Source: Sulfuritalea sp.
GTDB lineage: Bacteria > Pseudomonadota > Gammaproteobacteria > Burkholderiales > Rhodocyclaceae
Assembly: GCA_023700805.1 (NCBI GenBank)
Contig: JAMPYF010000023.1
Span: 1-64,000, forward strand
DNA: 64,000 bases
Direction: 5' to 3'
How positions within the stretch are numbered: position 1 is the first letter of the stretch; each line of letters begins with the position of its first letter. The position numbers and the translations under genes are program-made. Of this stretch, positions 357 to 17,229 are shown piece by piece. The notes below the pieces were generated by a model. The model was not told the DNA's origin. It ran no database searches and was given only the letters and a program-made list of their open reading frames with translations.

Positions 357-1871
357 ATGGCCTCTGCTAACACCGAACGTGATCTGTTTGCATGGATCGG
401 CCGCACCGACCTAAAGGCTGCCGCCGGAGATCCCGATGCTGGCAGTGGGCCGATTGCGCAGGCGGTGCTGGCAGAGCCTTACCAGGCCATCCACCTGCTC
501 AGCGACTTTTCGGCCGAAGAAACCAAGGGATATGTAAAGTGGCTCAGCGACCAAACAAATGCGAAGGTTCAGCCCTATCCCTCCAAACTGTCATCGCCTA
601 CCAATTTTGGGGAAATTTACGAAGCGGTGACGACGGTCCTTGATCGGCTACAGGCAATCAAGAACCAGCTGACGTTTCACTTGAGCCCCGGCACACCTGC
701 TATGGCCGCTGTCTGGATCCTTCTTGCAAAAACCACATGGCCCGCCCGCCTCATCCAGACCTCGTCACAGGCTGGGGTACAAGTGGCCGACGTCCCCTTT
801 GATATTGCGGCCGAATTCATCCCTAAACTCCTTCAGCAGTCCGATGCACGTCTCGCTTCCATGGCTCAGGGCGCACCGGATGAAACAGCTGAATTCAGCA
901 GCATCATTCATCGCAGTCCCGTCATGGCCCGCGTCATTGCGCAGGCAAAGCGCATTGCCATTCGCTCGATCCCGGTATTGATCGAAGGCGAAAGTGGTAC
1001 CGGCAAGGAACTGATGGCTCGGGCCATACACAAGGCTAGCCCTCGCGCGGCAAAGGCATTCATTTCGGTCAATTGCGGCGCCATCCCGCCTGAACTGGTC
1101 GAATCCGAATTCTTCGGCCACAAGAAAGGCTCCTTTACTGGCGCCGTCTCTGACCGCAAGGGGCATTTCGAGCGCGCGGATGGGGGCAGCATCTTCCTCG
1201 ACGAAATCGGCGAACTCCCCAAGGCGATCCAGGTCAAGCTGTTGCGCACCCTGCAAGAGGGCGAGGTGACACCGGTCGGTTCCAGCGAGCCACGGAAAAT
1301 TGATGTCCGGGTCATTGCCGCGACGAACCGCACATTAATCGAGGAAGTCGCCGCGGGCCATTTTCGCGAAGACCTGTTCTATCGCCTCGCCGTGGCAATT
1401 ATCAAACTGCCTCCACTGCGAGCTCGCTCAGGCGATATTTCCCTGCTAATCGAGAAACTCCTGCAGCAGGTCAATGATGCCGCCACGGATCTCGGCATCA
1501 AGCACAAGAAAATCTCTGCTAGCGCAAAGAATCTTATGCTCCAGCACGCCTGGCCAGGAAATATTCGGGAGTTGCTCAACACCTTGCAGCGGGCAGCCGT
1601 ATGGTCTGACGACGAGGTGATTGGGGTGGACGCAATCAAGGACGCAATCCAGCTGTCCCCACGTACTGCACCGGGTGCGGACAATATTCTGAATCGCCCC
1701 GTGGAAGCAGGGATAGAGCTGGAATCGCTCATGGCTCAAGTGGCGCGGCACTACATCGAACGCGCGCTGGAGAACACTCGCAACAACAAGACGCAAGCCG
1801 CGAAATTACTGGGTTTCGGCAACTACCAGACCTTCACCAACTGGATGAATCGCTACGGAGTATCCGGGTGA
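357..1871 (+). CDS. Sigma54-dependent activator with CARF/RtcR-like sensor domain
   Basis: A 504-residue enhancer-binding protein that should remodel sigma54-RNA polymerase when its sensor domain is engaged. Residues about 1-165 form an alpha/beta sensor region; the hydrophobic strand followed by LSPGTPAM (109-116) and a helix is what CARF domains and the RtcR amino terminus show at their ligand loop. Residues 180-405 are a full AAA+ module: Walker A GESGTGKE (211-218), the sigma54-contacting loop as GSFTGA (258-263, GAFTGA in most relatives), and Walker B LDEIGE near 281. A Fis-type helix-turn-helix closes the protein (about 476-503). The start lacks a clear Shine-Dalgarno but fits the domain length. 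Its partner is evident: a consensus -24/-12 promoter lies 22 bases after its stop, ahead of a restriction operon. The CARF assignment rests on motif pattern only; the AAA+ and HTH parts are certain. Confidence 0.87.
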   Translation: MASANTERDLFAWIGRTDLKAAAGDPDAGSGPIAQAVLAEPYQAIHLLSDFSAEETKGYVKWLSDQTNAKVQPYPSKLSSPTNFGEIYEAVTTVLDRLQAIKNQLTFHLSPGTPAMAAVWILLAKTTWPARLIQTSSQAGVQVADVPFDIAAEFIPKLLQQSDARLASMAQGAPDETAEFSSIIHRSPVMARVIAQAKRIAIRSIPVLIEGESGTGKELMARAIHKASPRAAKAFISVNCGAIPPELVESEFFGHKKGSFTGAVSDRKGHFERADGGSIFLDEIGELPKAIQVKLLRTLQEGEVTPVGSSEPRKIDVRVIAATNRTLIEEVAAGHFREDLFYRLAVAIIKLPPLRARSGDISLLIEKLLQQVNDAATDLGIKHKKISASAKNLMLQHAWPGNIRELLNTLQRAAVWSDDEVIGVDAIKDAIQLSPRTAPGADNILNRPVEAGIELESLMAQVARHYIERALENTRNNKTQAAKLLGFGNYQTFTNWMNRYGVSG

Positions 1872-1892
1872 TGCATGTCGAATTTAATGGGC

Positions 1893-1908
1893 TGGCACAC
1901 CGCTTGCT
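1893..1908 (+). promoter_or_regulatory. Sigma54 (-24/-12) promoter of the restriction operon
   Basis: The sequence TGGCACACCGCTTGCT matches the sigma54 consensus TGGCACG-N4-TTGCW, with exactly ten bases between the invariant GG and GC. If C1907 is -12, transcription starts near 1919, giving a leader of about 34 bases to the ATG at 1953. It lies between a sigma54 activator gene and hsdR, the expected place. Upstream activator sites would fall in the 3' end of the regulator gene; I did not identify them. Confidence 0.85.
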
Positions 1909-1952
1909 GATAGGGGTACATCCTTCAACAAAATGTGCTGCCAATAAAGACC

Positions 1953-4900
1953 ATGGACTCCCCCGTTACCAATCCACTGACGCAATCGGCCTCCCCGGTC
2001 GAAGGGGGTGTCGTGCAATCTAAGAACTTCGAATTCCTGCGCAATGCGCGCGGCGACCTTGCAGCGCTGGGCGGTTTCGCCGAGCACTATGCCTTCAATG
2101 ATCCTGCAAGCGCACTGGCCAAGTTGCGGCTGTTCGCCGAGCGTGTCGTGGATCTGGTCTATGACACGTTCCGCCTTCCCAAGCCCTACCAGCCCAATCT
2201 GAATGACCTCCTGAATGAGGATGCCTTCCGCAGTCGTGTACCGACGGTTGTCCTGACCAAATTGCATGGACTGCGTATGCACGGCAACAAGGCCGTCCAC
2301 GCCAACCAGGGCACAACGCCGACCGCATTGGCCATGGTGCGGGAAGCATTCGACATCGCGCGTTGGGTTTTTGTGACGTTCGATAATGGCCAAGTGGCGG
2401 GCATCCCTGCCTATACCCAGCCAACGCCGCCAGCCGATGCGAAGAAACTGGAGAAGGATCGCCAGCGCCTTCTCGCCCAGATCGCCGAGCAAGAGCAGCA
2501 AATGCAAGCGGTGCTCGAACAACTGGAAGCTACCAAAGCACAACAAGCCGCCGTTGAGCGCACCGCCGAAGAGCTGGCGCAGTTGGTCGCCAACGGCAAT
2601 GCGGCCGTCAATCAACTCGCTTTCGACGAAGCCACGACCCGTCAACGCCTCATCGATGCCATGCTGGTATCGGCACGTTGGAAAGTTGGTCAGGCAGGCG
2701 CGTCGACTGAAGAAGTCGGTCAGGAAGTCGAGATCCCGCAGCCGCAGAACAAAACCGGCATCGGCTACGCCGACTATGTCCTGTGGGACGACAACGGCAA
2801 ACCGCTGGCTGTTATCGAAGCCAAGCGAACCGCCAAGGATGCGGAAGCCGGTCGAACCCAGGCCAAGCTTTACGCCGACGGCCTGGAACAGAAACACGGC
2901 CAGCGGCCGGTCATTTTCTATACCAACGGCTTCGATATCTATATCTGGGACGACGTACAGAAACAAACGCCCCGCCGCCTGTTCGGTTTCTATTCCAAGG
3001 AAAGCCTCCAGTACCTGATCTTCCAGCGCAACGAGAAGCTGAGCCTGGATGCCATCAACCCGAAGGCCGAGATCGCTAGCCGGATGTATCAGATCGAGAC
3101 CATCAAGCGCATCTGCGACCGCTTCAGCCAGGGTTACCGCAAATCCCTGGTGGTTCTGGCTACAGGTACCGGCAAGACCCGTGTCGCCGTCTCTCTCTGC
3201 GATGTTCTATCACGGGCACGCTGGGCAAAACGCATTCTTTTCCTCTGCGACCGTCGCGAACTGCGCAAGCAGGCCGATGATGTGTTCAAGGAGTTTCTGC
3301 CGGGTGAACCGCGCATCCACATCAATGCCAATACCGCTGGCGATGTCACCAACCGCATCTATCTGGCCACCTATCCGGCGATGATGCAGTGTTACGAAAT
3401 GTTCGATGTCGGCTATTTCGACCTCATCATTGCCGACGAGTCGCACCGCAGCATCTATAACCGCTACCGTGATTTGTTTGTCTATTTTGATGCGCTGCAG
3501 GTCGGTCTGACCGCAACGCCGGTCAAGTTCATCACGCGCAATACCTTCAAGCTGTTCTCCTGCGAGGATGGTGATCCGACGTCCTATTTTGGCTACCAGG
3601 AAGCGATCAGCCACACGCCGCCATATCTCGTCCCCTTCGAGGTTTACACCCACACCACTGAATTCCTGCGTCGTGGCATCAAGTACAACCAACTCTCCGC
3701 AGAGCAGCGCGAGCAGCTTGAAAACGACGAGCCCGATGCCCAGACGATCGCCTACGATGACACCGAGGTTGACCGGGCCGTATTCAACAAGGACACCAAC
3801 CGCGCCATTCTGCGCAACCTGATGGAGAACGGCATCAAGGATGTCAACGGCGCCCATCCGGGCAAAACCATCATTTTTGCCCGCAACCACAATCACGCCG
3901 TGTTGCTGCAGGAACTGTTCGACGATATGTACCCGCAGTACGGCGGGGAGTTCTGCCGGGTGATCGACAACTACGATACCCGCGCCGAGCAACTGATCGA
4001 CGATTTCAAAGACCCCAAGAACACGCTCACCATCGCCATATCGGTCGACATGCTGGACACAGGCATTGATGTTCCCGAAGTCGTCAATCTGGTCTTCGCC
4101 AAACCGGTCAAGTCCTACGTCAAGTTCTGGCAGATGATCGGGCGTGGAACACGCCTGTGCCAGAACCTCAATGGCCCGGGCCAGGACAAGACCAAGTTCA
4201 GCATCTTCGATCACTGGGGTAATTTCGCCTATTTCGAAGAAAGCTACCGCGAGGCCAATCCCACAATCAGCAAGTCGCTGCTGCAAAAATTGTTTGAGGC
4301 ACGCCTGCAGTTGGCCGACGCAGCACTGTCTGCCGCCAACCCCGGTGCGTTCGATCTTGCCATCAAACTGATGCAGGCGGATATCGCAGCCTTGCCCGAA
4401 TCCACCATTGCCGTCCGCGAAAAGTGGCGCGAAGTACGTGAAATTCAGCGGCCAGGCGTATTGCCGGCACTCAGTGCAGCTACTCGTTCGTCCTTGCTCA
4501 AGGACATAGCGCCCCTGATGCAATGGCGCGATACCCGCAACTGGGATGATGCCTACCAGCTCGATCTGCTCGTATCCCGCATGCAGATCGAACTGCTCAA
4601 GAAGTCTGCCGTGTTCAATGATCTTCGGGATGATCTGATCGGTTTGGTAGCCCAGTTGCCGATCAACGTTAATGCCGTGCGCGACAAGCTGGAAACGATT
4701 GAGAAAGTCCGCAGTGGTGATTTCTGGAAGACCATGGTCGACCAAACCGATATCGCCGGCCTGGAAACGGTGCGTGAGGAACTACGCGGCATCATGCGGC
4801 ATCGCGTTGTGGGGCCGACCGTTGGTGGCAAGCCGCGAGTCCTCGATATCACCGAAGACGCCTCGAAGATCGAGTTCGCACGCCATATCCCGAAACTGGA

Positions 4901-5402
4901 AGGCACGGAGCTGGTCGCTTACCGGCAGCGCGTCGAGCAGGTACTCACGGCGCTGTTCGATGCCAATCCGACCTTGCGCAAGATTCGGCGCGGTGAAGCC
5001 GTTGGCGAAGCCGACCTTAACACTCTGGTCAGCCTGGTACTCACCCAGCACCCGGACGTCAATCTGGCTTGGCTGACTGAGTTCTACCCGGACACCGCTG
5101 GCGATCTGGCCACGGCGATTCGTACCATCGTTGGCATGGAGCCAGAAGTGGTTGCCGAACGTTTCGCGAACTTTTTCACGCGCCATCCGCAAATGTCAGC
5201 CAAGCAGCAGCGCTTTATGGCGCTGTTGCAGAACCACATCGCCAAGTTTGGCGTCGTGACGCTCGACAAACTTTATGAGTCGCCCTTTACCCAGGTCAGC
5301 GAAGAAGGTCCGGATGGCATTTTCGATAATGCCGCCGTCGAAGACCTGATCGCCGTGATCGACGGTTTTGGCCCGGCAAGCGAGCCACGCGCCAACCAAT
5401 AA
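1953..5402 (+). CDS. hsdR: Type I restriction endonuclease subunit HsdR
   Basis: Motor and nuclease subunit of a type I restriction-modification complex, translocating and cutting unmodified DNA together with HsdM2S. The amino-terminal 120 residues resemble the DUF4145-like extension found on many HsdR proteins, followed by a glutamine-rich coiled coil. The nuclease domain carries a PD-(D/E)xK core: [10 protein letters not shown] followed by IEAKR near residue 288. The SF2 helicase has Walker A TGTGKT (about 403), a DESH box (about 494) and motif VI in QMIGRGTRL. About 1150 residues is normal. GTG 1935 is an alternative start, but the ATG at 1953 has AAAGA just before it and leaves room for the leader from the sigma54 promoter. 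The rmuC gene follows after 18 bases. Confidence 0.95.
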
Positions 5403-5420
5403 CAAGAACAGGACAAGCTC

Positions 5421-7064
5421 ATGGACAGCCAACTTCTCACCCTCATTGCTGCCGGCATCGGTCTCGCCATCGGCGCAGCTGTCACTTGGCTGCTGACCCG
5501 GGGTCGGATTGCGGCTGCCATTCAACAAGGTCGTGCCGAACTCGCCGTTGATCTGGCCACCGCCACCGAGCGCGCTCGCGCCAACGATGCAGAACTGGCC
5601 AAACTCAATACCGCTCACGAGACCCTGAAGACCCAGACTAGCGAATTTCGCGACGCGCTCGATCAGGCACGGGATGACCTTGCCAAGCTGACCGAACGCG
5701 CCAGCCGTATTCCCGGCCTCGAAGCCACGCTTAACGAGGCCGAGCAAACCCTGAACACTACGCGGCAACAAGCGGCGGATCTGCGCGAAGCATCCGGGCG
5801 CCTCACCGCCGAGCTGAAAGCAGAGCGCGATTTGCTGACGCAAATGCGCAGCGACTGGCAAACTGAAAAATCATTGCGCGAGCAAGCCGAATCCAAACTC
5901 GGCGAACTAACCACCGAACTCGCCGAATTGACTACCCGGCTCGATGCCGAACGCAGCCAGGCCGCAGAAAAGCTGGCCCTTCTGCTCGAAGCCAAGGAAG
6001 CCTTGTCTAATCAGTTCAAGAGCCTGGCCAACGACATCCTTGAAGAAAAATCGAAACGCTTCACCGAACAAAACCAGACCAACATCGGCCAGCTGCTCAA
6101 TCCGCTCAAGGAACGAATGACCGAGTTCAAGGCCAAGGTGGAAGAGATCCACACAAAGGACACCGAGCAGCAAGCCACGCTCAAGGCCGAGCTGTCACAA
6201 CTCAAAGACCTGAACCGTCAAATGACCGAAGAGGCCCACGGTCTGGCGACCGCCCTCAAGGGGCAGGCCAAGAAGCAGGGCAACTGGGGCGAACTGGTGC
6301 TCGGCAATGTGCTCGATCGTTCCGGCCTGCGTGAAGGCAAAGATTTCAAGCGCGAAGTAAGCTTCAACACCGAAGACGGGCGCAAGCGTCCTGACGTGGT
6401 GATCTACCTGCCGCAGGCGAAGCATCTCGTCATCGACGCTAAGGTTTCGCTGAATGCCTATACCCGCTATGTCAATGCCGAGGACGATCTGGATCGCCAG
6501 CAGGCCCTGCATGAGCATGTCAATGCCGTGGCTAGCCGTATTCAGGAACTCTCGAATCGCGCTTACTTTGAACTTCCCGGTCTCAACACGCCCGAGATGG
6601 TCTTCATGTTCATCCCCATCGAATCGGCATTCGTCGAAGCCCTGCGTGCCGACGAGAGCTTGTTCCAGAAAGCCATCGAGCAGAACGTGCTGGTTGCAAC
6701 ACCGACCACATTGCTCACCAGCCTGAACATCGTGCGCCAGCTCTGGCGCTTCGAGGAACAGAACGCCCACACTGCCGAACTCGCCGATCGCGCAAGCAAG
6801 GTCTACAAGAAGCTCGTCAGTTTCCTTGGCAGCATGGAAGCCGTCGGCAAGCAGCTCGACAAGGCCAAAGAGTCCTTCGGCACAGCCATGGGACAACTCT
6901 ATACCGGCAAGGGCAATCTGATTGGCCAAGCCAAGGAATTTGAAAAGCTGGGCGTGTCGGTGCAAACACCCTTGCCCGACCATCTGGTGGCCAAGGCCGC
7001 CCTCGAACTTGAACACCTGCCCGAGATCGCCGACGGCACGGAACTGGAAACTACGCAATCATGA
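5421..7064 (+). CDS. rmuC: RmuC-family nuclease-like protein inside the restriction operon
   Basis: A 547-residue RmuC-type protein. Residues 5-25 form a membrane anchor, 30-270 a long Glu/Gln/Ala-rich coiled coil, and 285-480 the RmuC domain, a PD-(D/E)xK-like fold with RPDVVIYLP followed by LVIDAKVSL, giving the D and D-x-K pattern of the family. Chromosomal RmuC limits inversions at short repeats; copies between hsdR and hsdM are a recurrent arrangement whose role in restriction is unclear. The stop overlaps the hsdM start by four bases (ATGA), so translation is coupled. It may process or hold DNA at the membrane during restriction; that is inference. Confidence 0.9.
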
Positions 7065-8572
7065 TCACCAATCAACTCAAGAATGATATCGACAAGCTCT
7101 GGGATGAATTCTGGACCGGTGGCATCACCAACCCGCTCACCGTCATCGAACAGATTTCCTTTCTGATGTTCGCGCGCCTGCTCGACATCGACGAAACCCG
7201 TCACGAAAAGCTGGCGGGCCGTACCGGCAAATCACCGCACAAGAATTTCGGCCCCGACCAGCAAAGCTTGCGCTGGAAAAACTGGAGCAACTACGGCAAC
7301 GAAGAAATGTTGCGTCATGTGCGCGACCAGGTATTCCCTCACCTTCGTGATCTCGGCGGCAAGAACACCACCTTTGGCGAGTACATGAAGGACGCCACTT
7401 GCCTGATTCAGAAAGCCAACCTTCTAGTTTCCGCCGTTACTCAGATAACCCTGCTGCCACTGGGCAACAGTGACATAAAGGGCGATCTATACGAGCACAT
7501 GCTGAAAAGGCTAAGTACAGCTGGTATCAACGGCCAGTTTCGCACCCCTCGGCACATCATCAGGCTCATGGTCGAAATGCTCGACCCAAAACCCACTGAA
7601 GTGGTGGGCGATCCAGCTTGCGGTACGGCAGGCTTCCTCGTTGGCACCATGGAATACCTTCGCCAGAGATATTCGTCGCCCGAACTGGTGGAAACCTTCG
7701 AGGACGGCAGCAAGGGTTATCCCGGCGACCGGTTGGAGCCCTACCGCGAGCACATCCAGAACGGCTTGTTCCACGGCTTCGACTTCGACGTGACCATGCT
7801 CCGCATCGCTGCCATGAACCTGATGCTGCACGGCGTCGAGAACCCGGACATTCATTACCAGGACACACTCTCCAAGAACTTTCCGGAAAAATTCCGCCAG
7901 CAAGCCGAGTCTGGTTTCGATGTCATCCTGGCCAATCCGCCATTCAAGGGCAGCCTGGACGAGGAAGATGTCCATCCCTCCCTGCTGAAGAAGGTTAAGA
8001 CCAAGAAGACCGAATTGCTGTTCGTCGCACTCATCATGCGCATGCTCAAGAACGGTGGCCGCTCGGCCACCATCGTCCCGGATGGCGTGCTGTTCGGTTC
8101 CAGCAAGGCACACGTTGCCTTGCGCCAGCATCTGATCGACGAAAACCAACTGGAGGCTGTCATTTCACTGCCCTCTGGAGTGTTCAAACCCTACGCGGGC
8201 GTCTCTACGGCCATTCTGATCTTCACCAAGGGCGGGCAGACTGGAGATGTCCTGTTCTATGACGTGCAGGCCGATGGCTACTCGCTCGATGACAAGAGGC
8301 AGGAGATTGCGGAGAGCGATCTGCCCGATGTACTGGAAAAGTTCCAACAGCGCCGTCTCGCCAGCGCCGACTTTTCGGATAGAACAGCCAAAGCCTTTTC
8401 TATTTCTGTTGGCGATATTCGAAATCAGAAATATGACCTGTCGCTCAATAGGTATAAAGAGTCCGTGCAGGGGGAAATAGTCTTTGACTCTCCCCAAGAA
8501 ATACTAGATCGGATGCAAGTACTTGAAAGTGAGATCCAAGCGGAGATTCTCACTCTGAAGGGGATGGCATGA
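7061..8572 (+). CDS. hsdM: Type I N6-adenine DNA methyltransferase subunit HsdM
   Basis: A 503-residue modification subunit that uses S-adenosylmethionine to methylate adenine at the site chosen by HsdS, and also serves the restriction complex. Residues 1-130 are the helical HsdM amino-terminal domain. Motif I appears as [10 protein letters not shown] near residue 183 and the catalytic gamma-class motif as NPPF near 291. A carboxy-terminal helical region (about 430-503) should pack against HsdS. Start and stop both overlap neighbouring genes by four bases. Length and motifs are complete, so the gene looks functional. Confidence 0.96.
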
Positions 8573-9687
8573 CTTTTCGTAAGCGGCTACGTATTGGAGA
8601 GATATGCAAAATTCACGGCGGCAAGCCTGCTCCGTCGGATGACGGGGCCTTTGATCCATCGGGAATTCCTTTTGTCAGGATGAAAGACCTCGGTAGATAT
8701 CACCACACTACGAATCTAACAAAAACCGATGATTGCATATCTGGCTTTTGGGCTTCAAAGAATGGCTACCGCCCGATTCCAACGGGCTGCATCCTGTTGC
8801 CCAGGAGTGGATCGGTAGGGTTAAATCATCGGGCGATCCTAGGGGTTGATGCCATCATTGTTAGCCATTTATGTGCGCTTGAAGTTATCGACAAATCAAT
8901 AATTGACGTCCAATTTCTGTACCGCTATTTATGCTCAATAAATTTTGACAGGATTACAAAGAAAACCACGGGGCTTGATGCGATTAACTTCTCAGATCTT
9001 GCTGAAGTTGAGATTCCACTGCCTTCTATTGACGAGCAACGCCGCATCGCTCTAGCCCTTGATAGAGCAGACTCAATCTGCAATAAGCGTCGTGAGGCAA
9101 TTCATCTCACTGATGAGTTCTTGCGCTCGGCTTACCTGACTACAGTCAAGGTCGCTCTGGGTGTTGGCGCTCCGCCCGTTTCACTCTTGGATATTTGCAA
9201 CATCACTACCGGTAAGCTTGATTCAAACGCAGCAGAGGATGACGGGAAATACCCATTTTTCACTTGCGCTCAGGAGACATCGAAAATCAACAGTTATGCT
9301 TTTGATTGCGAGGCACTTCTTCTTGCCGGTAACAATGCTAGTGGCGATTACTCAATCAAACACTACAAGGGTAAGTTCAATGCGTACCAACGTACTTATG
9401 TGTTATCGCTAAAAAATCAGGGCTACTCCTACGGCTTTTTTCGATATGCAATTCAAAGTAAGTTGCGCGATTTGAAGAGAATGTCCAAGGGAACAAATAC
9501 GAAATATCTGACACTGGGAATACTTGCCGAGCAGATGCTTGTTGTTCCTGATCAGACATCCCAGCAAAAATTTGCAGATGTCTATTTGAAGGTTGAACGC
9601 CACAAGCTACAAATGGAGCGCCACCTGAAAATGTCTGGCGAGTTGTATTCGTCGCTTGCAACACGTGCATTTAGCGGGCAGCTATAA
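8569..9687 (+). CDS. hsdS: Type I specificity subunit HsdS
   Basis: A 372-residue DNA-recognition subunit with two target-recognition domains (about 1-150 and 195-340), each followed by a conserved helix: [18 protein letters not shown] ends the first half, and the second ends in a related coiled region near 335-365. The two halves define the two parts of a bipartite DNA site, which cannot be predicted by eye. The gene is visibly richer in A+T than hsdR and hsdM, as usual for HsdS, whose recognition domains are often exchanged. It begins inside the hsdM stop (ATGA) and ends 10 bases before the ATPase gene. Confidence 0.92.
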
Positions 9688-9697
9688 GGAGCGAGCA

Positions 9698-11779
9698 GTG
9701 GATGCCAATTCGATCAGGGAAGCTTTCACCGCACGGCGCTATAAGCGCACCCGCGAGACCAAGGTATATGACGAGTACCTTGCTCCGACGACTGGACAAT
9801 TTATCTACCTGCGGAAAAATGACGAGCAAGCGGTCGCCACACTGGTCGTTATTCATCCTGATCTGAAGCTGGAAGCTTTTGCGTCACTCGATGGCGTCCG
9901 TTTCGGTGCCGCCGACAAGCTGATCAAAGATCCTCGTTTTCGTCGCTTCCCGGAATGGGGTGGAACGACACTGATTCAGCACAGCGGTCGGCCGATCACA
10001 ATCGACTCTTTGGAGGCGCTTGGTCGCTTCCTCCAGTTGCTAGACACCCCGGCGGGCAGCGAGCGCGTGGGTGCTGACTTGCCACCCCGCCTGATGGCTA
10101 TTGAGTTGGAAAACTTCAAAGGGGTAGGCAGCCGGGTTCGCATCGACCTCGCGCCCATCACGCTGCTTTTCGGCGCCAATAGTGCGGGTAAGAGCACCAT
10201 TCTTCAGGCTCTGCAATACGTTCGCGAGGTGCTGGAGCGTCGTAACGCCAATCCTGATCGGACGCTTTATGGCGGCGACTTCGTCGACCTGGGTGGCTTT
10301 CACAACCTCGTTCATCAGCATGATGAAGGCAAGACGATTGCCATCAAGCTCGAACTCCAGCTCAACAAGGCTGAGCTGCCTGAGCTGACCCCGGAAGCCT
10401 TCGACGAGTGGCTGAACGTCGATGCGGAAGTCTGGGATCTCTATCAACTGCTCCAGGAAACCCGGAATCGCGCGGAGACTGTTAGCGTTGAACTGAAGAT
10501 TGGCTGGAGCTCGAACCGGCAGGCCGCCATCGTTCGCGGCTACGAGGTCGGGCTGAACGGCGCACTGCTGGCGAAAATCGAAAGCCAGGCAGACGGCAAG
10601 GATGCCTCAATCCAGATCAACCCGAAGAATCCTGTGTTCACCCGTTATCGCACTCAGGAAGAAATCGACAGTGCCAAGGAACTACTTGCTGCCTTGGATG
10701 ATGACGTAGCAACCGCAACTGACGATACCGCTTCAGAGGCGGACGATGCGGATAACCAGGGATATTCAATCTGGCCACAGATTACCGGCACGCTGGCGGA
10801 TGCCGATATCGAGCGGCCGGGCCAGGGATTCCGCCAGTGGCTGAGCAACGTTGACGGAGCACTGCCTGCGCTTGCTCCTTTGCTGTACGTGCCGGCCGGA
10901 GATGCCAAGGGTGCCACGGCGGTCTATTTGGCGCGGGAGCTGACAGCCTTCTTGACCACGGTAATCGTCGGCCCCGGCGTATTGATTCGTGACCAGCTGC
11001 GCAAACTGCGCTATCTCGGCCCGATTCGCAACGTGCCCGAACGCGATTTCGAGGCAGCACTGACACCCGACGAAGCCCGCTGGGCCGATGGCACTGCCGC
11101 TTGGGAAGCTCTCTTAATACGCGAGGAGTCGCTAATTGAGGAGGTTTCCACATGGATGGAGGACAAAGATAAGCTAGCAACTGGTTACGCAGTTGAGCGA
11201 TATCCAGCCATAGAGGTTGAGGTTGCAATGCTAAATCTGCTAATCCGTGCTGCTGATCCTGATTCTGGATTTCGGGTCACACCCCAAGATATTCAACGCC
11301 TCAAATCGAAGCCAGAGAAACAGCGTTTGTACTTGAGAGACACTGAAACCGATGGAGAATTCCAACCGCGTGATGTAGGTATCGGTATTTCTCAGGTGTT
11401 GCCAGTGGTAGTCGCATCTCTGGAGCCATCGGCAGCTTTGGTGGCCATCGAACAGCCTGAGCTCCATATTCATCCAGCTATTCAGGTGGGATTGGGTGAC
11501 CTGTTCATTAAGGGTGCCAAGGAGCATGGCATCAACTTCCTGGTCGAGACGCACAGCGAATACCTGATTCTGCGTTTGCTGCGACGGATTCGTGAAACCA
11601 CAGAAAATGAAGTGCCGCCAGGGGCCATCGGCATCGAGCCGGCGGACGTGGCTGTGATCTATGTCCAATCGACTGAATCTGGCGTTGAGCTTGTGCCACT
11701 GCCGATCGACGCAACCGGCGAGTTCACGACCCGCTGGCCCAAGGGATTCTTCGACGAGCGCGCGGAGGAACTGTTCTGA
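9698..11779 (+). CDS. AAA family ATPase, DUF3696-like (OLD/ABC-type)
   Basis: A 693-residue ATPase of the RecF/OLD-like AAA group. The chosen start is the GTG at 9698, preceded by AAGGAG at 9686-9691; an in-frame ATG at 9656 lies inside hsdS and has no such site. Residues 1-130 are an extra amino-terminal region without recognised motifs. Walker A is GANSAGKS (about 156-163), Walker B with the catalytic glutamate is AIEQPELHIHP (about 582), and the H-loop is ETHSEY (about 618). The final 60 residues resemble DUF3696. No TOPRIM nuclease domain is visible, unlike OLD or GajA, so nuclease activity would have to come from the downstream HNH or HKD-like proteins. It shares one base with the next gene. 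Confidence 0.85.
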   Translation: MDANSIREAFTARRYKRTRETKVYDEYLAPTTGQFIYLRKNDEQAVATLVVIHPDLKLEAFASLDGVRFGAADKLIKDPRFRRFPEWGGTTLIQHSGRPITIDSLEALGRFLQLLDTPAGSERVGADLPPRLMAIELENFKGVGSRVRIDLAPITLLFGANSAGKSTILQALQYVREVLERRNANPDRTLYGGDFVDLGGFHNLVHQHDEGKTIAIKLELQLNKAELPELTPEAFDEWLNVDAEVWDLYQLLQETRNRAETVSVELKIGWSSNRQAAIVRGYEVGLNGALLAKIESQADGKDASIQINPKNPVFTRYRTQEEIDSAKELLAALDDDVATATDDTASEADDADNQGYSIWPQITGTLADADIERPGQGFRQWLSNVDGALPALAPLLYVPAGDAKGATAVYLARELTAFLTTVIVGPGVLIRDQLRKLRYLGPIRNVPERDFEAALTPDEARWADGTAAWEALLIREESLIEEVSTWMEDKDKLATGYAVERYPAIEVEVAMLNLLIRAADPDSGFRVTPQDIQRLKSKPEKQRLYLRDTETDGEFQPRDVGIGISQVLPVVVASLEPSAALVAIEQPELHIHPAIQVGLGDLFIKGAKEHGINFLVETHSEYLILRLLRRIRETTENEVPPGAIGIEPADVAVIYVQSTESGVELVPLPIDATGEFTTRWPKGFFDERAEELF

Positions 11780-12654
11780 TGATCAAGGAGTTCGCGCTTG
11801 AGCCGGATGTTCTTGCATCGTCTTTCCGTGATTTCACATACTTCACTGAGAAATTTGGGGTTGCTCAAGGGAGGGTGATTTCCCGTTTCCCGAAGGATTG
11901 GAAGCGGCTTGTCTATGCTGCTGCGCAGGCTCGACTTAAAGGCACCAAGGAGCTCGCCCTAATCGAAGTTCGTTTAAGGGATCTGGCGGATGACGTGTTA
12001 GTGGCATTTGGACGGCCAGGGGGCGACTCCTCAAAGCAATGGCTCGAACGAGCAATTGTTGAACATGCCCGCCAGGCTTTTTCGGCGATCATCGCTACCA
12101 GTAATGCTCAATCGCATGGCGATGTGCTGACGTCGGATGACCTTGATGAAACTGACCCACGTTTTGCCGCCAAAGGCCAGGCGCACATCAACCGAACAGC
12201 AGCAGAAATTGTCGGATGGGTTAAGCCGCTGGTAATTAATGCTAGGAAGGTAAAACTTATCGATCCGCACTTCGATCCGACGGCGTCCCGTTGGAGGCGG
12301 ATGCTCAAGTTGTTGCTCAGTACGATGGCACCTGTCGCGCAAGCGGGTACGACAATTGAGATTTACCGCTCAGATCGAATTCCATCTCAGCATCTCAATC
12401 ACTGCTTTACTTCGGCAATTCCGCCATTGCTTGTTGGAGGGATTCGTATTCTTGTGTTCATCCGTCCTGACGCAGAAATGCACAATCGCTTTATTCTTAT
12501 TGATACAGGTGGGGCATCCTACCAAACGGGCCTAGATGACAATGAAGACGGCGGTTCGACACCTCAAGACGTTGCAACCTGGCTTGCCACAGATGTGCAT
12601 CGCAACGAATGGCAGACCTATAGCGGCGGTACACCTTTCCTTAGTTTTGGATAG
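11779..12654 (+). CDS. Unknown defence-operon protein with HKD-like motif
   Basis: A 291-residue protein I do not recognise as a named family. The amino-terminal half is helical and charged. The carboxy-terminal half has VKLIDPHFDP (a strand ending in acidic and histidine residues), then EIYRSD, and finally HNRFILID followed by Gly-Gly. HNRFILID fits HxR(x)4D, the variant of the phospholipase-D HxK(x)4D signature seen in some nucleases, with only one such motif present, so an active enzyme would have to dimerise. Start and stop are coupled to its neighbours (TGATG upstream; 6 bases to the HNH gene). A nuclease or nucleic-acid-binding partner of the ATPase is the best guess. Confidence 0.65.
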   Translation: MIKEFALEPDVLASSFRDFTYFTEKFGVAQGRVISRFPKDWKRLVYAAAQARLKGTKELALIEVRLRDLADDVLVAFGRPGGDSSKQWLERAIVEHARQAFSAIIATSNAQSHGDVLTSDDLDETDPRFAAKGQAHINRTAAEIVGWVKPLVINARKVKLIDPHFDPTASRWRRMLKLLLSTMAPVAQAGTTIEIYRSDRIPSQHLNHCFTSAIPPLLVGGIRILVFIRPDAEMHNRFILIDTGGASYQTGLDDNEDGGSTPQDVATWLATDVHRNEWQTYSGGTPFLSFG

Positions 12655-12660
12655 GCCGGC

Positions 12661-14361
12661 ATGGATCATAACCTTGCGTTAAGGATTTCTCGGCTAGCTA
12701 ACTGGGATGACATCGCGAGCCTCGAAATAAATGCTCGGGAGAGAGGCCGCTTAACGACCGAGGTGGCTGATGCGCTCCGCCAACGCTCAATAGAGTTGGC
12801 GAAATCGTTTATTGCAGAGAAGACCGGCATTGATCTAACGAGTCTCTCCCCTGCCGAAGAAAAGATTGTCCGCGCTGTAGGCGAATACGTCGCTATCAAG
12901 AAGCGCGAGGGAAAGTATCCAGGTCGAACGCTTGAGCAGATCAAGAATAGAGGCCTGCTCGGGGCTGCTGAAAACGCGGTGTGCCGAGCAACACCAACGC
13001 AGGGTTACCAAAGCCTGGTTGATGCGTCGCTCGAAGAGCTTTCTTATGAGCAAATCGTTATTGAGCATCCAGACGAATTTTCCCCGAGAGCGGTTTGGTT
13101 TTCCCGACGCACCTTAGGCTTGCCAAACACCAGCGACGCTGCCCCAGCAGATACTGGTGGCGACACCCAGACGAGAACAGTGACCGTTCTTCAATGGCAG
13201 AAGCAGGTAGCTAAAGAGAACGATGGGGTGCTTCCGGCGTTCACGAATGTGAATACTGCCGCGATCCTGGGAATGGATGATCTTCAACGGTACGGTCGGG
13301 TACTCGGAAACATCCAGTCGCGTATCGACTTTGCCTGTTATCGCTGTGGCTTACCCCCCCTTGGATTGGCGGCCGATTCTCCATTCGAGCGTGCTTGGGC
13401 ACAAGAAGGACGAGATTGGAAATTTCCAGTTGATACCATGCAAGCGGCTGCTCAAGCTCGGGTATGGGCCGATACAGACTTTGACCAGGTACTACGGGTA
13501 ACGGAAGAGCTTCCCGGACAAGCTCACATCTTTTGGACAGAAGAGCTGTCAACCAATGAAGCACAAGTTAAGGCCTGGGCCTACGGGCCAGCATCCAAAC
13601 TAAGCGATAGCGCACCTCGCAATGATCAAGAGCCCGGAGTACGTCGCAACCCTCCCTGGTCAAGAGATGAATTGATCCTGGCACTGGACCTGTACCTTCG
13701 CCATAGAGAGTCTCCCCCTGGGAAAGACAGCAAGGAAGTAACAGAGCTTTCGAACTTTCTAAATCATATGGGAGAGGTGCTCGGGCTGGGTGAAGCAGAC
13801 TCGTATCGGAATACCAATGGCGTTTACATGAAGATGATGAACTTCAGACACCATGACCCCGAGTACGTCAAAGACGGAAGGGTTGGCCTGGCTCGAGGGA
13901 ACAAGGATGAGGTCGTGGTATGGCATGAATTTTCTGGCGATCCGGTACGGCTTGTACAGGTTGTGGCAGCAATACGAGCAACCGTTGAAACTCACACCAG
14001 CGATCGAGAATTAGAGGGAGCAGATGATCCAGACATTGTCGAGGCAGAGGAAGGCAGGGTATTGACCCGCCTCCATCGAGTCCGAGAGCGCAATCGAAAA
14101 CTTGTTGAAGCGAAAAAGAAGCAGGCACTCAAGGAGGCAGGCAAGTTGATTTGTGAGGCATGTGGGTTTGACTTCGTTAGCAAATATGGGCCAACGGCCG
14201 AAGGTATCATTGATGTACATCACACTAAGCCAGTCCATACTCTGATGCCTGGCGATACAACCAAATTAGACGACTTGGCGCTTCTATGTGCTAATTGCCA
14301 TCGTATCGTGCATTCAGCTAAGAAATGGCTGACGATCGAGCAGGTCAAAGCATTGGTTTAG
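12661..14361 (+). CDS. HNH endonuclease, McrA-like
   Basis: A 566-residue protein with a carboxy-terminal HNH nuclease: CEACGF (about 499), the catalytic DVHHTKP (about 518), then CANCH and a final histidine, giving the zinc-bound beta-beta-alpha-metal fold. Residues about 335-420 contain NPPWSRDELILALDLYLR and NGVYMKMMNFR, a block that commonly precedes HNH domains in McrA-type modification-dependent nucleases and probably reads DNA. The first 330 residues are unassigned. It follows the HKD-like gene by 6 bases. Whether it cuts modified phage DNA or acts as an effector under ATPase control cannot be told from sequence. Confidence 0.88.
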   Translation: MDHNLALRISRLANWDDIASLEINARERGRLTTEVADALRQRSIELAKSFIAEKTGIDLTSLSPAEEKIVRAVGEYVAIKKREGKYPGRTLEQIKNRGLLGAAENAVCRATPTQGYQSLVDASLEELSYEQIVIEHPDEFSPRAVWFSRRTLGLPNTSDAAPADTGGDTQTRTVTVLQWQKQVAKENDGVLPAFTNVNTAAILGMDDLQRYGRVLGNIQSRIDFACYRCGLPPLGLAADSPFERAWAQEGRDWKFPVDTMQAAAQARVWADTDFDQVLRVTEELPGQAHIFWTEELSTNEAQVKAWAYGPASKLSDSAPRNDQEPGVRRNPPWSRDELILALDLYLRHRESPPGKDSKEVTELSNFLNHMGEVLGLGEADSYRNTNGVYMKMMNFRHHDPEYVKDGRVGLARGNKDEVVVWHEFSGDPVRLVQVVAAIRATVETHTSDRELEGADDPDIVEAEEGRVLTRLHRVRERNRKLVEAKKKQALKEAGKLICEACGFDFVSKYGPTAEGIIDVHHTKPVHTLMPGDTTKLDDLALLCANCHRIVHSAKKWLTIEQVKALV

Positions 14362-14374
14362 AGGTGTGCCTCAT

Positions 14375-15040
14375 ATGATTGAGGCCGTTCTTGACCTTTT
14401 TCGAAGAGCTAAGATTGCAACTAATATGCTTATCGATGGACCAACGCTTTACCACGGATCGACAGTAGGTTGGTTGCACCTTTCAGGTTTCGGAAAAGCC
14501 GACTTCGCCTTTGGCGAATTTGCCGCGGCGAACCCGTTTATTTATCTATGTACCCAGCGCGAAGGCGGCGACAGCGCCGCCTGCAAAGCATTCGTCCAGG
14601 TATATAAACGTCACATTAATAAGCCGCCCTTGGCTGAATATTGTTTTAGGGGTACGCCATTTGCAATTGATCGTTACGTCTATCACGTCACGTGCAAAGC
14701 CCAGGTCAATGTGCTTGACTTGCATGCCGAGTCATTGGATGAGGTAGATATGAAGCGTGTCAAACAGGTCATCGCCAACGCAAGTAAGTCAAGATTAAAG
14801 TCCATTTCGACATCCTTTGACCTATGCCTAAAGCCTATAACTTGGCGCAATCATCTTGAAGCTGCCTTTGTAAACCAACGAGACGAGATGGTGCATGCGC
14901 TGGGTCGGGTCGGTTTTCAGTTGATCCGCAATTTCGAGCGAGATGGTGATGGTCAGGAATACGGCGAAGTCTGGGCATTGCCAATGAATCAGGTTGCTTG
15001 TGTAACCCTGCAACCACCGGCTATCTACAAGATCGCTTAA
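14375..15040 (+). CDS. Unknown protein with ADP-ribosyltransferase-like motifs
   Basis: A 221-residue protein at the end of the defence operon. I chose ATG 14375 because GAGG (14361-14364) is then well placed; GTG 14366 is the alternative. No family is recognised with confidence, but LYHGST near the amino terminus, NPFIYLCTQ with an Ala/Cys-rich helix in the middle, and EYGEVWAL near the end follow the H-Y-E order of ADP-ribosyltransferase folds (DUF3990-like and KptA/PARP-like groups have LYHG(S/T) openings). If correct it could modify a host or phage target. The gene is AT-rich compared with the core genome and is the last before the terminator. Confidence 0.6.
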   Translation: MIEAVLDLFRRAKIATNMLIDGPTLYHGSTVGWLHLSGFGKADFAFGEFAAANPFIYLCTQREGGDSAACKAFVQVYKRHINKPPLAEYCFRGTPFAIDRYVYHVTCKAQVNVLDLHAESLDEVDMKRVKQVIANASKSRLKSISTSFDLCLKPITWRNHLEAAFVNQRDEMVHALGRVGFQLIRNFERDGDGQEYGEVWALPMNQVACVTLQPPAIYKIA

Positions 15041-15151
15041 CTTAGATCCTTGCCCTATAGTGCTTTCCGATTCTTAGGTGCCTGAAATGGTCTTGACGCA
15101 TATAAAGTGGGGATAAGTCCAGTTACCCGTGGGGACGCCAGCACTGGCAAG

Positions 15152-15187
15152 ACGCCCGATTCCGCAAGGAATCGGGCGTTTTTCTTT
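15152..15187 (+). terminator. Rho-independent terminator of the defence operon
   Basis: ACGCCCGATTCC (15152-15163), a GCAA loop and GGAATCGGGCGT (15168-15179) form a perfect 12-bp stem followed by a T-rich run (TTTTCTTTC). It lies 110 bases beyond the last operon gene and ahead of the thioesterase gene, which marks the functional and probably the compositional end of the island. Confidence 0.88.
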
Positions 15188-15264
15188 CATGTCCCGACCG
15201 GAGCCACCGGCGGTATCCGGAGGACGGCTAGAATCGCCACACCTACTGCGTTTCCGACATCGCC

Positions 15265-15699
15265 ATGGCCCGCATCAAGCTCCAGTTTTCCGACGACCAG
15301 TTCTGCTATTCGACCGATCTCACGGTGCGCATCACCGACATCAACGGCGCCAACCATCTCGGCAACGACTCGATGATCTCGATGATCTCGGAGGCGCGGG
15401 CGCGCTTCCTGTTCGACTTCGGCGTCGAGGAAACCACCGACGACCAGATCATCGTCACCGACCTGGCCACCACCTACCTGGCCGAGGCCTATACGCGCGA
15501 CGAGCTGCGCTTCGAGGTCGGCGTCACGGACTTCAACAAGTACGGCGGCGACATCATATTCCGCGTCACGCGGCCGGCCGATGCGACGCTGATCGCCATG
15601 GCCAAGTCCGGCTTCGTCTTTTTCGACTACCGGGTGAAGAAAGTGGTGCCCATGCCCGAGTTCTTCGCCGCCAAGTTTCCCCGGGTCAATCGGCTCTAG
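15265..15699 (+). CDS. Hot-dog fold acyl-CoA thioesterase family protein
   Basis: A 144-residue single hot-dog domain of the 4-hydroxybenzoyl-CoA thioesterase/FadM type. The segment DINGANHLGNDSM matches the region where this group carries its active-site acidic residue and following helix, and the order of strands (FEVGVTDFNKYGG, FFDYRVKKVVPMP) fits. It likely hydrolyses an acyl-CoA, with unknown chain preference. It is the first clearly core-like, high-GC gene after the island and is followed after 27 bases by a MaoC-like gene, so the two may act on related acyl-CoA substrates. Confidence 0.8.
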   Translation: MARIKLQFSDDQFCYSTDLTVRITDINGANHLGNDSMISMISEARARFLFDFGVEETTDDQIIVTDLATTYLAEAYTRDELRFEVGVTDFNKYGGDIIFRVTRPADATLIAMAKSGFVFFDYRVKKVVPMPEFFAAKFPRVNRL

Positions 15700-15726
15700 G
15701 CGGCCGGCCCGGCGCTGCTGAAAAAC

Positions 15727-16662
15727 ATGGACTCGCAGACACTCGATCACTTGCGCTCCTGGGTCGGCCGCCGGGAACAGGTCGACGACCTGATCGCGCC
15801 TTCCAGGGTGGCCGCGCTGGCGGCGACGCTGGACCGCGACGATCCTGCGCCGCTGCCGGGCGATGCGCTGCCGCCGCCCTGGCACTGGACGCTGTGCGTG
15901 GCCGCGGCGCGCCAGTCGGCGCTCGGCCCCGACGGCCATCCGGCGCGCGGCGGCTTCCTGCCGCCGGTGCCGCTGCCGCGCCGCATGTGGGCCGGCGGCC
16001 GGCTGGGCTTCCCGCAGCCGCTGCGCGTTGGCGAAGCCGTGCAGCGCCGCTCGCAGGTGATCTCGGTCGAGCACAAGAGCGGGCGCTCCGGCGAACTGGT
16101 CTTCGTCCTGGTGCGCCATGAATTCCACGGTGCGAACGGACTCGCGATCACCGAAGAGCACGACATCGTCTACCGTGAGCTGCCGAGCGCCGTGGGCTCC
16201 GCCCCCACGGCCGGCTTTGCACAGCCGGCCGGTTCCGCGGGCGCGGAGCAGTGCTCCGCGAAACCCCCGCGACACCCAGCGCCAACTCTTGCTGCGGCGC
16301 CCGCAAGCTGTGCCTGGCAGCGCGAGATCGTGCCCGACGACGTGCTGCTGTTCCGCTATTCGGCGCTGAGCTTCAACGGCCATCGCATCCACTACGACCG
16401 CCGCTATGTGACCGAGGTCGAGGGCTATCCCGGCCTCGTCGTGCATGGACCGCTGATCGCCACGCTGCTGCTCGACCTGCTGCGGCGGAATCTGCCCACT
16501 GCTGCCATCGCGGCGTTCGAGTTCAAGGCGCTGAAGCCGCTGTTCGACATCGCGCCGTTTTCCGTCCATGGCCAGCCCGAGGGCGACGGCAGGACCGTCA
16601 GGCTCTGGGCGACGGATGCCGAGGGCTGGCTGGCGATGAGCGCCAGCGCCAGCCTGGCCTGA
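15727..16662 (+). CDS. MaoC-like acyl-CoA hydratase (mesaconyl-CoA hydratase type)
   Basis: A 311-residue double hot-dog protein resembling FAS1-type dehydratases and mesaconyl-/itaconyl-CoA hydratases. The amino half holds the PPVPLPRRMWAGG region; the carboxy half has FRYSALSFNGHRIHYDRRY, where the Asn/His/Asp cluster is the usual hydratase active site, then GLVVHGP. Between the halves, residues about 155-196 are a low-complexity Ala/Pro/Gly stretch encoded by three consecutive DNA hairpins (16189-16260) plus a copy of the dispersed repeat, which looks like an in-frame insertion in the linker. Catalytic residues are outside it, so the protein may still work. Confidence 0.8.
   Translation: MDSQTLDHLRSWVGRREQVDDLIAPSRVAALAATLDRDDPAPLPGDALPPPWHWTLCVAAARQSALGPDGHPARGGFLPPVPLPRRMWAGGRLGFPQPLRVGEAVQRRSQVISVEHKSGRSGELVFVLVRHEFHGANGLAITEEHDIVYRELPSAVGSAPTAGFAQPAGSAGAEQCSAKPPRHPAPTLAAAPASCAWQREIVPDDVLLFRYSALSFNGHRIHYDRRYVTEVEGYPGLVVHGPLIATLLLDLLRRNLPTAAIAAFEFKALKPLFDIAPFSVHGQPEGDGRTVRLWATDAEGWLAMSASASLA
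16189..16260. repeat. Triple-hairpin insertion inside the hydratase gene
   Basis: Three back-to-back inverted repeats: GCCGTGGG (16189-16196) with CCCACGGC (16204-16211); GGCCGGCT (16209-16216) with AGCCGGCC (16223-16230); and CGCGGAGCA (16242-16250) with TGCTCCGCG (16252-16260). They occupy the linker between the two hot-dog halves and keep the reading frame. This is the signature of a palindromic repeat that landed in a coding region. Confidence 0.75.
16269..16291 (+). repeat. Dispersed repeat copy within a coding sequence
   Basis: Carries GCGACACCCAGCGCCAACTC followed by TTG, close to the consensus CGCCAGCGCCAACTCTTG found at convergent junctions elsewhere in the window. It directly follows the triple hairpin in the hydratase gene and is translated in frame. 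Confidence 0.65.
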
Positions 16663-16674
16663 ATCCCGCCGGCA

Positions 16675-17229
16675 TCAGGCGCGGCCGCCTGCCGCGGCGG
16701 CATCCGGGTCGGCGAGCGTGACGCGGACCACGCTTTCATAGTCGAAGCTGAGCGCCATCCAGCGCCGCGCCGGCAGACCCTGCGCCTGACCGACGATGAC
16801 TTTCATCACGCCCGCATGGGTCACCAGCACGGCGCTTTCCAGGCCCTGCCGGCGGACGTCGGCAAGGAAGTCGTGAACCCGGCGCTGCAGTTCGCCGACC
16901 GATTCGCCCTGCGGCGGCCGATAGCCGAGCGGATCGGCGGCCCAGCCGTCCAGCGCCGCGCGCTGGATCCGCTCCCAGGGGCTCATTTCCCAGGCGCCGA
17001 AATGCATTTCCTGCAGCCGCGCATCGCTTTGCGGGGCCGCATGCAGGGCCTGCGCCAGTTGCGCGCAGCGCTGCAGCGGGCTGGTGTAGAGCGGTAACTG
17101 CGGCGGCAGTTGCACGGCGATGCGCGCCGCGGCGGCGGCCACGTCTTCCGCCAGCGCCAGGTCGGTGCGGCCGTAGCAGACGCCGGCGGCGACCTGCGGC
17201 GCGGGGTGGCGGATCAGGTAAAGCTGCAC
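16675..17229 (-). CDS. cobC: Alpha-ribazole phosphatase / histidine phosphatase
   Basis: A 184-residue histidine phosphatase starting at GTG 17229, overlapping the end of cobS. It opens LYLIRHPAP, with RHP in place of the usual RHG, and carries [17 protein letters not shown] and [10 protein letters not shown], the further phosphate-pocket residues of the family. Removal of the 5'-phosphate from alpha-ribazole-phosphate (or adenosylcobalamin-phosphate) is the step that pairs with CobS and CobT, and its place in the cobT-cobS operon supports that over a general phosphoglycerate mutase role. It ends 12 bases from the convergent hydratase gene. Confidence 0.87.

Follow-up and report, generated by a model that had tools for sequence, protein, structure and literature searches.

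The DNA analysed here is a 64,000-nucleotide stretch from Sulfuritalea sp. (contig JAMPYF010000023.1; hereafter the window), which starts with the first base of contig 14 in a 4.16-Mb genome (63 contigs, 89% complete). Its first genes are a transcription regulator and, behind it, a type I restriction operon. The regulator gene at 357-1871 is probably that of a ligand-gated sigma54 activator and, as judged from sequence, would carry its whole switch. We think that the most informative feature of the locus is an enhancer-like site inside the regulator gene, which the first-pass annotation of this DNA overlooked. The features of the proposed switch are listed below.

302-330, + strand: sigma70-like promoter of the regulator (TTGCCG, 17 bp, TAAAAT), overlapping the operator; a consensus match, weak by itself
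322-357, + strand: upstream tandem-palindrome site, proposed autoregulation operator (tandem-model score 20.3)
357-1871, + strand: regulator, CARF sigma54 activator, 504 amino acids (PADLOC RtcR_PspF2--CARF_AAA_HTH)
372-806, + strand: CARF sensor domain, residues about 6-150 (AlphaFold2 model, PDB comparison)
903-1667, + strand: AAA+ sigma54 interaction domain with lid, residues 183-437
1503-1538, + strand: intragenic tandem-palindrome site, proposed enhancer (upstream activating sequence), coding HKKISASAKNLM (score 25.7; next best in the gene 5.3)
1734-1814, + strand: Fis-type helix-turn-helix (HTH), residues 460-486 (Pfam HTH_8)
1893-1908, + strand: -24/-12 sigma54 promoter element TGGCACACCGCTTGCT (consensus match and conservation among relatives)

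The regulator and the sigma54 element behind it

The regulator has the Walker motifs, GAFTGA-type loop, AAA+ fold and Fis-type HTH of sigma54 enhancer-binding proteins. The first-pass annotation had read it in this way, and Pfam, PADLOC and a fold search confirm the reading. PADLOC profile PDLC01995 (RtcR_PspF2) matches over its full length (668 bits, residues 9-502 on positions 3-480 of 481), while the score against the NCBIfam RtcR equivalog NF038308 stays below the cut-off (359.5 of 650 bits). A protein search of the genome found no other CARF-type activator. A PDB sequence search with the N-terminal domain gave no relative (best E 0.78), and a comparison of folds was required. Because the full-length fold search listed mainly AAA+ structures, the domain was modelled alone. 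The AlphaFold2 model has the six-stranded Rossmann fold of CARF domains and matches PDB structures that we take to be CARF proteins; the CARF-like sensor proposed earlier thus stands. The motif LSPGTPAM follows strand 4, and L109, G112, T113 and K125 are invariant in 18 of 18 aligned rows. From its domains and the conserved element behind its gene, the protein is predicted to activate a sigma54 promoter. RpoN is encoded in the same genome.

Related loci were collected by a genome scan with a CARF alignment, and the best 80 of 272 relatives were taken. The promoter, site and codon counts use 68 loci (window included) that have an intact regulator of at least 440 amino acids and enough sequence; the rest were dropped. 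Many of the related loci are metagenome-assembled genomes.

The element at 1893-1908 holds the only perfect TGGCAC-N5-TTGC of the window, in which looser -24/-12 matches are no different in number from chance. Transcription from it would be expected to start near 1919. At the junction behind the regulator (scanned from 20 bases before to 130 after the stop), 56 of the 68 loci have an element with at most two mismatches in 10 as against 4.67 expected, at a threshold picked after the distributions had been seen, and 24 of these elements begin at the first base after the stop codon. A stricter scan, in which GG and GC are required, gives 18 perfect loci and 47 with at most two mismatches (0.03% and 4.3% in shuffles). 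The count rises from 47 to 56 when the GC at -12 is dropped because several loci read TTGA or TTGT. One locus counted as element-less, L147, has a one-mismatch match at -30 in a wider scan range. The perfect element that had been reported before hsdR is therefore present, conserved, and not a single coincidence.

A tandem-palindrome site upstream of and inside the gene

Two imperfect 16-bp palindromes of the type CAYAARA-NN-TYTTRTG, spaced about 20 bp from centre to centre, stand in front of the regulator in many loci. In the window CAYAARANNTYTTRTR lies at 342-357, its only mismatch-free match in the 4.16-Mb genome. With mismatches allowed, the upstream word is found 26 times in the 300 bases 5' of 81 starts, where 1.4 matches are expected. 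The sigma70-like promoter that the site overlaps is the one consensus match in 1-2100, with 1.0 expected by shuffling.

A count of dyads in the last 320 bases of the regulator gene gave no clearly enriched word, and the intragenic site was detected only after a mismatch-tolerant scan with the upstream word. A 36-bp tandem model was then trained only on noncoding upstream DNA (54 sites from 70 regions), although its 36-bp seed was typed after both the upstream and the intragenic sequences had been viewed. Upstream regions exceed a score of 15 in 53 of 70 cases as against 0.7% of shuffles, the model having been trained on them. Within the regulator genes, 61 of 68 (3.8 expected) have their best match 320-400 bases ahead of the stop codon, at about 360, and 60 of 68 have a site scoring at least 7 in that region, as against 0.8% of shuffles; the threshold of 7 was likewise picked after the distributions had been seen. 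Seven other activators of the window's genome (nine were fetched and two gave no open reading frame, ORF) have best scores of -15.5 to -4.8. Elsewhere in the genome only weaker matches were found, 62 versus 91 for a reversed control pattern.

The site also leaves a mark on codon usage. In a synonymous-constraint scan of 481 codon columns in the 68 genes, the top five columns are residues 386, 387, 390, 391 and 393, all in the site, with z of 11.8-16.8 over a background mean of 1.84 (standard deviation 2.07). The next columns (z 9.6, 9.5 and 8.9) lie outside the site and are mainly serine AGC columns. For the 23 genes with a GC content of at least 62%, site codons were compared with those elsewhere in the same genes. 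Ala390 is GCA in 18/22 (116/1346 elsewhere) and Leu393 is CTT in 17/20 (117/1221 elsewhere), while site codons TCT, AGA and AAT are used in 13/19, 12/21 and 11/19, as against 21/481, 20/926 and 38/196 elsewhere. Since these AT-rich codons go against the habit of high-GC genes, the constraint acts on the DNA and not only on the protein.

In the 68 loci, 55 have both intragenic site and junction element, 7 neither, 5 the site only and 1 the element only (Fisher p 6e-6, with thresholds set after the fact). Two further genome samples, 398 of the phylum and 399 of the order with three candidates scored per genome, gave regulator matches above 570 bits, separated by a gap from a lower group that reaches no higher than about 450 bits and consists mostly of ordinary activators, with two distant relatives (L045, L046). 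These samples provide 20 loci, that is, 25 minus five identical to loci of the best-80 set. The intragenic site scores at least 7 in place in 14 of the 20, and the element is found in the same 14 and in L094; L091 (2.2) and L094 (-2.4) have their best match at the expected position as well, but score too weakly to be included. Among five plasmid loci, all have the intragenic site and four the element. In three of them (L181, L182 and L184) site and element occur with no recognisable upstream site (-13.9, -10.4 and -6.7), an indication that it is the intragenic copy that works on the downstream promoter.

Altogether 91 loci were compared: 68 from the best-80 scan, 18 from the phylum and order samples and 5 from plasmids, leaving out five duplicates, L083 (regulator cut by a contig end) and L075 (hsdR cut). 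Site and element are both present in 69, both absent in 12, and found singly in 6 (site) and 4 (element). In two of the last group, L073 and L082, a site at -354 (18.7 and 18.5) is excluded by the bin limits, and a fairer count is 71, 12, 6 and 2.

A proposed switch and its alternatives

The model proposed for this locus borrows from RtcR of the RNA repair operon, which likewise has a CARF gate on an AAA+ sigma54 activator and whose CARF domain, according to the accessible text of PMC7790460 and PMC9650030, restrains activity until ligand is bound. In the absence of a signal, the CARF domain would hold regulator dimers inactive, and dimers occupying the operator at 322-357 over their own promoter would limit their own synthesis. 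The intragenic site at 1503-1538 would act as an enhancer of the downstream promoter. Ligand binding by the CARF domain would let the AAA+ domains assemble on this site, with looping of the roughly 370 bp that separate it from 1893; as is general for sigma54, ATP hydrolysis would then open the polymerase at the -24/-12 element that follows the stop codon. Activation would transcribe hsdR-rmuC-hsdM-hsdS-AAA-P7-HNH.

With the sensor and enhancer inside one gene and the promoter immediately after it, the same control would extend to whatever defence operon is placed downstream. One gene may thus be a complete mobile induction cassette, in which the product senses and activates, the coding sequence holds the enhancer and the promoter follows the stop codon; we favour this idea, if with some reserve. 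The payload does vary. The commonest same-strand gene behind the regulator is hsdR, either close to the window's class or more distant. In other loci an AAA-DUF3696 gene stands there, usually followed by a P7 gene (see below). The 91 loci divide into 41 with a close hsdR, 13 with a distant hsdR, 11 with AAA and 26 with other payloads, and a quick regulator tree of 91 rows requires at least 30 changes of payload class. If the cassette is real, unrelated defence operons share one alarm simply by their position behind the regulator, among them two type I restriction classes, AAA-DUF3696 pairs, kinase/phosphatase triads, and reverse transcriptase and helicase modules.

Several observations weigh against this model. 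The site lies about 370 bp from the promoter, whereas sigma54 enhancers are usually quoted at 100-200 bp (PMC3040749, accessible text), and no IHF-like match with up to one mismatch was found between the two. The site occurs without the element in L101, L109, L114, L167, L169 and the plasmid locus L183. When kinship is controlled for, on a tree with the counts 69, 12, 6 and 4, the association is not significant (seven independent pairs, about 3.3 the same way and 0.1 opposite, median p 0.25). A simple scan found no + strand terminator in 1-2100, including the interval between regulator and hsdR, so that some basal transcription of the operon could come from the regulator's own promoter by read-through. 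Such read-through may render the operon leaky, and the earlier description of the restriction operon as tightly silent goes beyond what the sequence shows. The looked-for sources of ligand are missing as well: in this 89% complete genome neither RtcA nor a SMODS cyclase was detected, and the best Cas10 match (20.8 bits) is below the cut-off of 27.

The same evidence bears on other explanations. The intragenic site could bind the regulator and yet be a roadblock or auxiliary autoregulatory site, with 322-357 driving the promoter from about 1.5 kb away. An upstream site is strong in many loci, at least under the model trained on it, and free of mismatches in the window, and the six loci with an intragenic site and no junction element would fit. 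This is nevertheless quite improbable, given the plasmid loci that have site and element without an upstream copy, and given that 7 of the 12 element-less loci of the 68 also lack an intragenic site at score 7. That the codons are conserved through an mRNA-level feature or common descent, and not for a protein-binding site, is very unlikely indeed. In favour of it, the loci share ancestry and codons agree more than expected even outside the site, but the top five columns exceed this background, the same tandem motif stands in noncoding DNA 5' of the gene, and high-GC genes retain AT-rich codons at the site. Finally, the operon might not be truly inducible, being transcribed mainly by read-through while sigma54 adds little. 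The missing terminator agrees with this, as does the need of a type I system for standing methylation. In 23 of 33 loci hsdM starts no more than 30 bp after hsdR (with an overlap of exactly 4 bp in 14 of them), which makes a separate constitutive methylase promoter between the two unlikely there; the window is among the other ten, its larger distance being filled by rmuC. Conservation of the junction element over what we take to be widely separated lineages is hard to explain if the element is idle, and we consider read-through as the main source of transcription improbable. Restriction and modification appear to share transcription, and under shared induction the cell would be endangered unless basal read-through keeps its chromosome methylated.

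Similarity of fold does not identify a ligand. The nearest tested relative known to this analysis is RtcR, whose CARF domain binds tRNA halves with a 2',3'-cyclic phosphate end (PMC7790460, accessible text). By analogy, an RNA end of the 2',3'-cyclic-phosphate kind may be the likeliest ligand here, a tentative choice to which we give slightly less than even weight. A cyclic oligoadenylate is unlikely, for the RtcR precedent points elsewhere, and neither a Cas10 above cut-off nor a SMODS cyclase was found in the genome. An RtcB RNA ligase is encoded on contig 57 (45334-46629) without a detectable RtcA, and the window's regulator is not next to rtcBA.

The pairing of a CARF activator with restriction genes, taken earlier as plausibly undescribed, is already in print. 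The accessible text of Makarova et al. 2014 (PMC4012209) associates RtcR-like CARF activators with restriction-modification (R-M) systems, and it and PADLOC RtcR_PspF2 share with the window the domain order, the type of neighbourhood and the predicted role as sigma54 activator. Unlike the present analysis, that text has no promoter map, binding site or intragenic element. In the CoCoNuT superoperons of Bell et al. 2024 (PMC11090510), as in the window, the regulator comes first, a type I R-M system lies directly behind it and sometimes an RmuC-domain protein, ShdA, is present; the accessible main text has 'upstream activating' once, 'promoter' once and 'enhancer' never, and names no site. No McrBC/CoCoNuT gene is among the eight proteins scanned in 357-14361. 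In contrast to RtcR, the window's regulator misses the equivalog cut-off, no rtcA was found in its genome, and its target is restriction and not repair. RptR of R-M islands (PMC12255303) is also a dedicated transcriptional control of restriction, but it is a repressor, and the main text lacks sigma54, RtcR and CARF. The main text of the Shield paper (PMC10270631) contains neither 'RtcR' nor 'sigma', and the words restriction, intragenic and RtcR are absent from the main texts of PMC4641369 and PMC6615313. In the literature searched, whose coverage leaves out most subscription papers, no description of the promoter, the binding site or the intragenic enhancer came to light, and no precedent was recognised for an enhancer in its activator's own gene. 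Our verdict is that the pairing is ordinary and the wiring new. Unusually placed enhancer pairs of another sigma54 activator, HbpR, are reportedly the subject of Jaspers et al. 2001, to go by its title.

What was a predicted association of CARF activators with R-M systems is now mapped as a circuit, whose three DNA parts can be tested and which offers a specific ligand assay. A signal of infection or damage could turn on the defence genes behind the regulator. An enhancer kept by codon constraint inside the coding sequence of its own activator would be an unusual gene architecture, and the intragenic site offers a sequence signature by which further inducible defence operons can be sought.

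The gene run and related loci

All genes in 357-14361 are on the + strand, and from hsdR on they are separated by at most 18 bases or overlap. From this spacing it is inferred that hsdR (ATG at 1953), rmuC, hsdM, hsdS, AAA-DUF3696, P7 and HNH, in this order, are transcribed as one unit. With hsdR, hsdM and hsdS in one run, the system is a type I R-M system.

1953-5402, + strand: hsdR, type I restriction subunit; the ORF opens at GTG 1935 (PADLOC REase_I PDLC03047, 1019 bits; Pfam ResIII, EcoEI_R_C, HSDR_N)
5421-7064, + strand: rmuC-like gene; hydrophobic N terminus (by eye) and RmuC domain (Pfam RmuC, E 7.7e-98)
7061-8572, + strand: hsdM (Pfam N6_Mtase, HsdM_N)
8569-9687, + strand: hsdS (Pfam Methylase_S)
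9656-11779, + strand: AAA ATPase with DUF3696; start codon uncertain, given the overlap with hsdS (Pfam AAA_21, AAA_15, DUF3696)
11779-12654, + strand: P7, unnamed partner of the AAA protein (adjoins AAA matches in related loci)
12661-14361, + strand: HNH endonuclease-domain protein, the last gene of the run scanned (Pfam HNH)

The rmuC-like gene is possibly related to ShdA of Shield, a phage-blocking protein that has an RmuC domain, a membrane segment and a coiled coil; an rmuC-like gene also lies between hsdR and hsdM in L163, L070 and L090. P7 has no family match in Pfam, PADLOC, NCBIfam or PHROGs. In 20 or more of 24 rows it keeps D162, H235, R237, G245 and G251, which presumably resemble one half of a phospholipase-D-like motif. 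The AAA-DUF3696 gene, which in the window stands behind hsdS, is the first payload with no restriction genes before it in L099, L100, L110, L118, L119, L128, L139, L140 and L145, and several of these loci continue with a P7 gene. AAA-DUF3696 (with P7) looks like an independent defence module.

Ten of 17 listed downstream ORFs and ten of 19 divergent ORFs were scanned. Downstream, L117 has TPR, DUF4007 and an Eco57I-type methylase, L153 has PLD and an SNF2 helicase, and the others include HATPase and AAA_11/12 helicase. L170 (Allochromatium palmeri) has PcfJ and a reverse transcriptase/HisKin-conflict ORF (13947-16577), the latter being the second ORF scanned behind the junction. Two plasmid loci have VWA-PP2C-kinase triads. 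L081 has two regulator copies, at 1497-3008 (+) and 15309-16832 (-) in oriented coordinates, that face each other across about 12 kb; the interval holds distant hsdR and hsdM matches, and the first copy has a strong upstream site (31.3) and neither intragenic site nor junction element.

On the divergent side, ARPP-1 (PF20208) is the minus-strand neighbour in 5 of the 10 genes scanned (L137, L149, L150, L153 and L173). In the 350 bases 5' of the regulator, 16 of 67 loci have a minus-strand -24/-12 element with at most one mismatch, where 0.7 are expected from shuffles, which suggests that the regulator may also drive divergent operons. These elements are perfect in L142 and L167 and have one mismatch in L102, L106, L120, L126, L127, L132, L138, L144, L149, L150, L153, L164, L165 and L176.

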